Part shown: positions 851-36,577 of the stretch, piece by piece | Layout of the letters: the number at the start of each line of letters is the position of its first letter | Position numbering within the stretch: position 1 is the stretch's first letter | NCBI RefSeq assembly: GCF_964340395.1 | Contig: NC_135551.1 | Location: 20,012,003-20,076,002, forward strand | Origin: Glandiceps talaboti | Lineage: Eukaryota; Hemichordata; Enteropneusta; Spengelidae | Reading direction: 5' to 3' | DNA: 64,000 nucleotides | Notes under the pieces: generated by a model | The model's input: the letters and a program-made list of their open reading frames with translations, nothing else | Told to the model about the DNA's origin: nothing | The model's database searches: none | Position numbers and translations under genes: made by a program

Positions 851-1042
851 ATGGTTAAGAAGGTGGAATTTGTGATCTCCCACGATAAATTGGGGACTTT
901 GCAGGCCCAGAAAGGCCGTGTGGAGGATTTATTTAATGTACTCGTTTTGCTAACGAACCTTGTTGAGGGTCCTCACAGCAGCGGTCAACAATGGATTCAA
1001 ATTCAGGCCCGTGAAGAAGATTCCCCCACAGACAACGCCAAG
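851..1042 (+). CDS. ZC3H12: ZC3H12 exon 1 (start codon, first half of KH-like region)
   Basis: 64 codons, phase 0, ending in a strong donor (CCAAG|GTAAGG). The ATG sits in good context (gaaATGG) and is preceded by an in-frame TAA at 830-832, so the start is well fixed. Residues such as [10 protein letters not shown] and QQWIQIQ resemble the start of N4BP1, where a similar segment runs into an AKEYI motif. Here NAK at the exon end joins EYI at the start of exon 2. Confidence 0.82.

Positions 1043-36577: not shown

Follow-up and report, generated by a model that had tools for sequence, protein, structure and literature searches.

A hemichordate Regnase-family gene joins a predicted N4BP1/KHNYN-type diKH to a ZC3H12 nuclease in a probably ancestral bilaterian layout

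Published descriptions, within the excerpts of the papers cited here, separate nucleases that combine KH domains with a PIN domain (KHNYN, N4BP1 and NYNRIN) from those that combine a PIN domain with a CCCH zinc finger (the Regnases, or ZC3H12 proteins) (PMC7226360). The diKH-type domain is restricted in those descriptions to KHNYN, N4BP1 and NYNRIN, and the Regnases are described without it (PMC7226360, PMC12982082). In Regnase-1, the N-terminal domain binds and activates the PIN domain, and the finger raises the affinity for RNA (PMC4772114). The diKH of KHNYN does not bind RNA, is needed for antiviral action and has been proposed as a protein-docking site, and mutation of the GxxG motif in its second KH leaves activity intact (PMC11997328). 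ZAP and KHNYN together could do the work of ZC3H12A, one protein binding the RNA and the other cutting it (PMC6615859). N4BP1-like proteins have been reported from lancelets, where they carry a diKH-type domain, and also from starfish and the sea hare (PMC11997328, PMC9888277). Here we describe a gene of the acorn worm Glandiceps talaboti, located in a window of 64,000 nucleotides of contig NC_135551.1 (positions 20,012,003 to 20,076,002), that combines features of both groups in a single protein.

The gene consists of seven plus-strand exons between positions 851 and 36577 of the window, with GT-AG borders at all introns, and encodes 923 amino acids (Table 1). The spliced product is identical at every letter to isoform X1 of RefSeq LOC144433463, and an in-frame TAA ends 18 nucleotides 5' of the ATG. 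An initial annotation had placed the in-phase junction of exon 1, which ends in NAK, and exon 2 at 1042/27009, which proved exact and agrees with isoform X1. It had also claimed that one gene unites an N4BP1/KHNYN KH region with a full ZC3H12 nuclease, which is borne out by the Pfam models PF23050 (KH_N4BP1_1st) and PF11977, a match to the N4BP1 structure 6q3v, a CCCH finger and a UBA-like domain. PF23050 matches residues 6-72 (E=1.8e-13, 50.7 bits, cut-off 27), which indicates that the match continues over the exon 1/exon 2 junction at residues 64/65; exon 1 alone reached 38.7 bits in a whole-genome search. When residues 1-142 were compared with sequences in the PDB, the match to 6q3v spanned residues 6-138 (E=4.2e-9). 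The second KH, the linker, the UBA-like domain and the start of the PIN domain all lie within the single open exon 2, so this part of the join is independent of splicing. Residues Asp338, Asp422, Asp423 and Asp441 are present in the PIN domain, as judged from motif positions. The Pfam CCCH models scored below threshold on the finger, and the ZC3H12C PIN-CCCH structure 7ndj aligns through its last histidine. At the C-terminus, no Pfam match to PF18561 (the Regnase C-terminal domain) was found in the Glandiceps protein; among ten relatives this model scored 15.4-62.6 bits, with five of the ten above the cut-off of 25.7, and the Glandiceps C-terminus can be aligned to the matching relatives. The order of domains is a predicted packed diKH, a UBA-like domain, the PIN domain, the CCCH finger, a disordered tail and a predicted three-helix C-terminal domain, which is probably the ancestral bilaterian arrangement.

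By its nuclease, the Glandiceps protein is a member of the ZC3H12 family. In comparison with known structures, its PIN domain scored 340.9 bits against ZC3H12C and 332.9 against ZC3H12A (range for ZC3H12A/B/C, 283-341) and 171.1 against KHNYN. A tree of 36 PIN domains (IQ-TREE, LG+C20, midpoint root; 172 of 216 columns kept, with about 40 extra residues carried by rows P0029 and P0088) separated ZC3H12 (100/99) from a set made up of KHNYN and two N4BP1-like domains of voles; it placed hemichordates and echinoderms in one group (95/92), vertebrates in another (98/93) and chelicerates in a third (98/99). The PIN scores and this tree, together with the CCCH finger, the UBA-like domain and the aspartates, support the assignment. 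Across the 590-Mb Glandiceps genome, PF11977 matches were confined to exons of this locus (two candidates scored), the one PF23050 match above cut-off was exon 1 (three candidates scored), and the sole match to PF23052, the model of the second KH, was exon 2 at 19.2 bits (two candidates scored). These profile searches, with two or three candidates scored each, revealed no separate N4BP1 in the genome. A second genomic PF23050 match, below threshold at 17.1 bits over 15 model positions, lies in an 83-codon open stretch in which no second domain was seen, and looks like chance. The Saccoglossus protein P0002 is named NEDD4-binding protein 1-like in one source and ZC3H12B-like in UniRef, which suggests that N4BP1-like labels of invertebrate proteins need to be checked for a CCCH finger. 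As a separate observation, the vole proteins P0003, P0004 and P0006, one of which is named N4BP1, are without the CCCH pattern and apparently have the NYN/PIN domain in more than one copy; in P0003, two separate stretches match KHNYN and ZC3H12B structures.

The N-terminus had initially been described as one KH-like region within residues 1-145. Kinship with the KH region of N4BP1/KHNYN holds, as profile, PDB and AlphaFold2 matches were found over residues 1-142, but the AlphaFold2 model predicts two type I KH modules (KH1 and KH2) in an orthogonal packed arrangement rather than a single region. Between 129 and 141 residues of this model align jointly to 9cs9, 9hts and 6q3v, compared with at most 81 for the other listed KH structures. 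KH1 is predicted to contain a single unbroken helix (residues 11-28), like that described for KHNYN KH1. The residues of the KH1-KH2 interface are kept, with F28 in 44 of 45 rows and Y66 in all 45, which we mapped to KHNYN F35 and Y69. A GxxG loop was found in none of the 45 KH1 segments and none of the 45 KH2 segments, Glandiceps included (one row is gapped in KH2). By analogy with KHNYN, docking of a protein partner by the diKH would be likelier than RNA binding.

The composite of diKH and ZC3H12 nuclease is not unique to Glandiceps. Saccoglossus has the same contiguous N-terminus, with 66 of 130 aligned diKH residues identical, and the composite also occurs in two starfish, lancelets and arachnids (scorpions and spiders). 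PF23050 is furthermore present in listed ZC3H12B proteins of a sawfish, many ray-finned fish, the coelacanth and several amphibians, which shows that the premise of the initial annotation that vertebrate ZC3H12A-D are without the KH part does not hold for ZC3H12B. Two wider searches, with 2743 and 1860 matches, supplied the rows, in each case the best 120, so counts among them are not frequencies; a query of residues 1-150 alone had yielded 2 proteins at E<=10 from 146 candidates. The 180 listed rows include 45 with a full diKH, 13 with KH2 only and 28 with a vestige (86 in total), and 94 fall in none of these classes; the rule for a full diKH admits rows with a shortened KH2 match (P0168 to position 90, P0161 to 105). 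The CCCH pattern is missing in 3 of the 120 rows of the first listing, which are the vole N4BP1-like proteins. When a scorpion protein was modelled with chelicerate-type sequences as the only input, the best matches of the structure were those of the Glandiceps diKH. The initial annotation had left the choice between an ancestral composite and an independent fusion, and the former fits better with the presence of the composite in a second hemichordate, in starfish (two species), lancelets and chelicerates, and in ZC3H12B of vertebrates. The diKH would thus probably date back to the bilaterian ancestor of ZC3H12, with reduction or absence in the remaining listed vertebrate rows.

In several species, forms with an alternative start rejoin the shared sequence immediately before the motif (E/D)Y(I/L), which is the site of the exon 1/exon 2 border in Glandiceps. 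Ascaphus X3 shows this against a full-length row from that frog, and Ptychodera X2, Acanthaster X2, Polypterus X2 and the spider Stegodyphus show it against relatives. Not all other rows with KH2 only start at this site: several are without the motif and two retain AK before it. At the level of sequence, the pattern points to a single old exon border and to forms that have KH2 but not KH1. As KH1 is a separate first exon, alternative first exons can yield forms without a complete diKH, and intron 1 of the Glandiceps gene appears large enough to hold such exons, judging from the other species.

Among vertebrates, many ZC3H12B rows of reptiles, a bird, lungfish, a monotreme and some frogs and fish begin with MTAWSMVE(K/R)LKMEK or a similar segment, which corresponds to the last KH2 helix in other fish and amphibians. 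Of the 28 vestige rows, 23 have residue 1 at position 116 of the KH profile. These 23, picked from the 28 by that start position, scored 18.1-27.8 bits against a shuffle maximum of 7.7 (5600 shuffles, 5165 reported); of five mammal rows that were added, human and three others scored 9.5-11.6 bits and one opossum row 0.5. The profile was trained partly on ZC3H12B of fish and amphibians, so a match of ZC3H12B starts is expected by orthology and is informative about the position of the start. The ZC3H12C proteins of shark and coelacanth align weakly over KH2 (13.9-19.3 bits), which indicates a degraded stretch at most. None of the rows with PF23050 among the 180 listed comes from a reptile, bird or mammal. 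These vertebrate ZC3H12B proteins thus appear to have their annotated start inside a former KH2, with the qualification that some KH-less rows are isoforms or possibly incomplete models, in which loss and missing annotation are inseparable row by row.

Based on these findings, we consider it quite probable that the Glandiceps gene encodes a ZC3H12 (Regnase) endoribonuclease in a probably ancestral bilaterian layout, with a partner-docking diKH that shares common ancestry with that of N4BP1/KHNYN. By analogy with Regnase-1, the PIN domain would cut mRNA, the UBA-like domain would dock on the PIN domain and activate it, and the CCCH finger would hold the RNA. The diKH, in which the interface is kept and GxxG is gone, may bind a protein partner and so target or control the nuclease, as proposed for KHNYN; partner docking and RNA contact would then be united in one chain. 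The diKH of ZC3H12 and that of N4BP1/KHNYN would have been inherited from one ancestor and would have been reduced or lost in ZC3H12A, ZC3H12C and many ZC3H12B proteins. A broader scenario, which we offer tentatively and rate at somewhat below even chances, is that the Regnases and N4BP1/KHNYN both descend from a single nuclease of early bilaterians that had diKH, UBA, PIN and CCCH domains and C-terminal helices; KHNYN would have lost the CCCH finger and would borrow RNA recognition from the CCCH protein ZAP, the diKH would have disappeared from Regnases in reptiles, birds and mammals, and the diKH would be an old partner-docking site of both pathways, toggled by the choice of first exon where it is kept.

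Several observations weigh against this interpretation. PF23052 remained below its cut-off of 27 (15.4 bits for the whole protein, 18.1 for residues 1-142), so the second KH of the Glandiceps protein rests on structure prediction. The C-terminal three-helix bundle of the "extended" diKH was not predicted, as residues 145-251 have a predicted local distance difference test (pLDDT) score <50 and no helix, which indicates that Glandiceps has a predicted diKH and not demonstrably an extended one. Among the chelicerates, PF23050 is below threshold in three rows (11.9-15.1 bits) and absent in two with KH2 only, three further named rows score 22.7-27.9 bits over KH2 alone, and Nephila P0152, at 43.8 bits on its first 250 residues, failed the rule for a full diKH on the whole sequence. 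The scorpion model is weak (mean pLDDT 44.4), with the PIN domain lacking a confident model. The PIN tree is midpoint-rooted, its outgroup of KHNYN and two vole domains consists of long branches, and it gives no branching order among lancelets, chelicerates and the remaining groups; as the NYN tree envisaged in the initial annotation, it separates ZC3H12 from KHNYN. KH-less ZC3H12B rows also occur in toads, other frogs, bowfin, other ray-finned fish and a chimaera. The CCCH finger may have been gained in ZC3H12 or lost in N4BP1/KHNYN, and a protein-docking role of the diKH is still a hypothesis even for KHNYN.

Other explanations of the locus appear less likely. The initial annotation had proposed an RNA-binding platform, which would mean that RNA is chosen by the KH modules and handed over to the PIN domain. 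We regard this as improbable, as GxxG is absent from both modules across the 45 rows (with the one gapped KH2), the KH1 helix is predicted to be unbroken as described for KHNYN KH1, and in the available text on KHNYN the diKH is without RNA binding and the KH2 GxxG mutant is still active (PMC11997328). The protein might instead be orthologous to N4BP1 and have acquired a CCCH finger, as the name of Saccoglossus P0002 and the best matches of the diKH to N4BP1/KHNYN would suggest; the PIN domain, with 341 bits against ZC3H12C but 171 against KHNYN, its place in the tree and the UniRef name ZC3H12B-like make that very unlikely.

The join itself could also be misread. The 26-kb intron would be compatible with exon 1 belonging to another gene or never being spliced to exon 2, yet the PF23050 match spans the junction and is stronger for the protein than for exon 1 alone, the join is present in RefSeq, and the N-terminus of Saccoglossus is contiguous, so an annotation artefact is extremely unlikely. 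Hardly more plausible is an independent fusion in hemichordates, by which an N4BP1-type KH exon was shuffled onto a ZC3H12 gene: KH1 is indeed a separate phase-0 exon of a shuffleable type, 26 kb upstream, but KH2 shares one exon with UBA and the beginning of the PIN domain, the alternative starts known from several further species all rejoin at this (E/D)Y position, and the layout is common to chelicerates, echinoderms, lancelets and vertebrates, a spread that largely refutes this account.

Elsewhere in the window, a near-duplicate stretch precedes exon 7 (35870-36031), in which the acceptor sequence gtatgtttcag occurs twice, with its end at about 35952 in one copy and 36031 in the other, and which is a possible alternative acceptor. 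Long simple repeats at 15202-15629, 24160-24579, 39357-39659, 44458-44838, 46063-46503 and 56342-56674 give rise to spurious open reading frames. On the minus strand, two open stretches at 52961-54135 resemble what we take to be LAS1-like exons (no Pfam match at 1e-3), and open stretches at 63238-63998 resemble a small-molecule methyltransferase (no Pfam match at 1e-3 for 63238-63642). Outside the gene, three open reading frames of the window gave no Pfam match at 1e-3.

Table 1. Features of the Glandiceps talaboti gene, in positions of the window
Feature	Position	Strand	Residues	Remarks
Exon 1	851..1042	+	1-64	most of KH1; phase 0, ends NAK, donor GTAAGG
Intron 1	1043..27008	+		25,966 bases, GT-AG
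Exon 2	27009..27850	+		KH1 end, KH2, linker, UBA-like domain, PIN start; acceptor TCTCAG
KH2	27036..27227	+	74-137	predicted: AlphaFold2 and structural match to KHNYN/N4BP1 KH1-KH2
UBA-like domain (PF18039)	27588..27707	+	258-297	E=3.3e-13
PIN/NYN nuclease	27804..34056	+	330-492	exons 2-5; PF11977 E=1.2e-65
Exon 3	31025..31164	+		PIN
Exon 4	32731..32965	+		PIN
Exon 5	33990..34688	+		PIN end, CCCH finger, disordered region
CCCH zinc finger	34087..34137	+	503-519	C-x5-C-x5-C-x3-H, directly after PIN
Exon 6	35347..35464	+		disordered
Exon 7	36032..36577	+		stop included; three-helix C-terminal domain
Three-helix C-terminal domain	36446-36571	+	881-922	helices predicted by AlphaFold2

In the open-licence literature, as far as its accessible text extends, we found no paper that describes a diKH in ZC3H12 proteins, and an earlier mention is possible; database records carry PF23050 together with PF18039 and PF11977, which indicates that the architecture is already visible in databases. 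The finding is a variant within known families and is of evolutionary value. A protein with KH, PIN and CCCH domains in arachnids and fish links the antiviral nucleases of the ZAP-KHNYN system to the Regnase nucleases of mRNA decay, with a likely shared ancestor, and makes two questions testable, namely what the diKH binds and how ZAP and KHNYN came to share their tasks. It also serves as a warning that invertebrate "N4BP1-like" names may conceal ZC3H12 genes.

Compared with known systems, the Glandiceps protein is closest to the Regnases in its nuclease. It shares the UBA-like domain, PIN domain and CCCH finger with ZC3H12B and ZC3H12C (Regnase-2 and Regnase-3; PIN 72-74% identical over 155-178 residues) and the same three elements with Regnase-1 (PIN 71-73% identical), the accessible domain descriptions of which are without a diKH (PMC12982082, PMC4772114). 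ZC3H12B also has the diKH in listed rows of many fish, the coelacanth and several amphibians, whereas many of its rows, including some from frogs and fish, begin at the last KH2 helix. KHNYN and N4BP1, by contrast, are described in the available text with KH and without CCCH (PMC7226360), and a helical bundle follows at the C-terminal end of their diKH (PMC11997328), for which the Glandiceps model gives no counterpart; the PIN domain of KHNYN is also more distant, at 50-51% identity. Set beside the proposed sharing of RNA binding and cutting by ZAP and KHNYN (PMC6615859), the composite would be the undivided form, with the docking module still attached.
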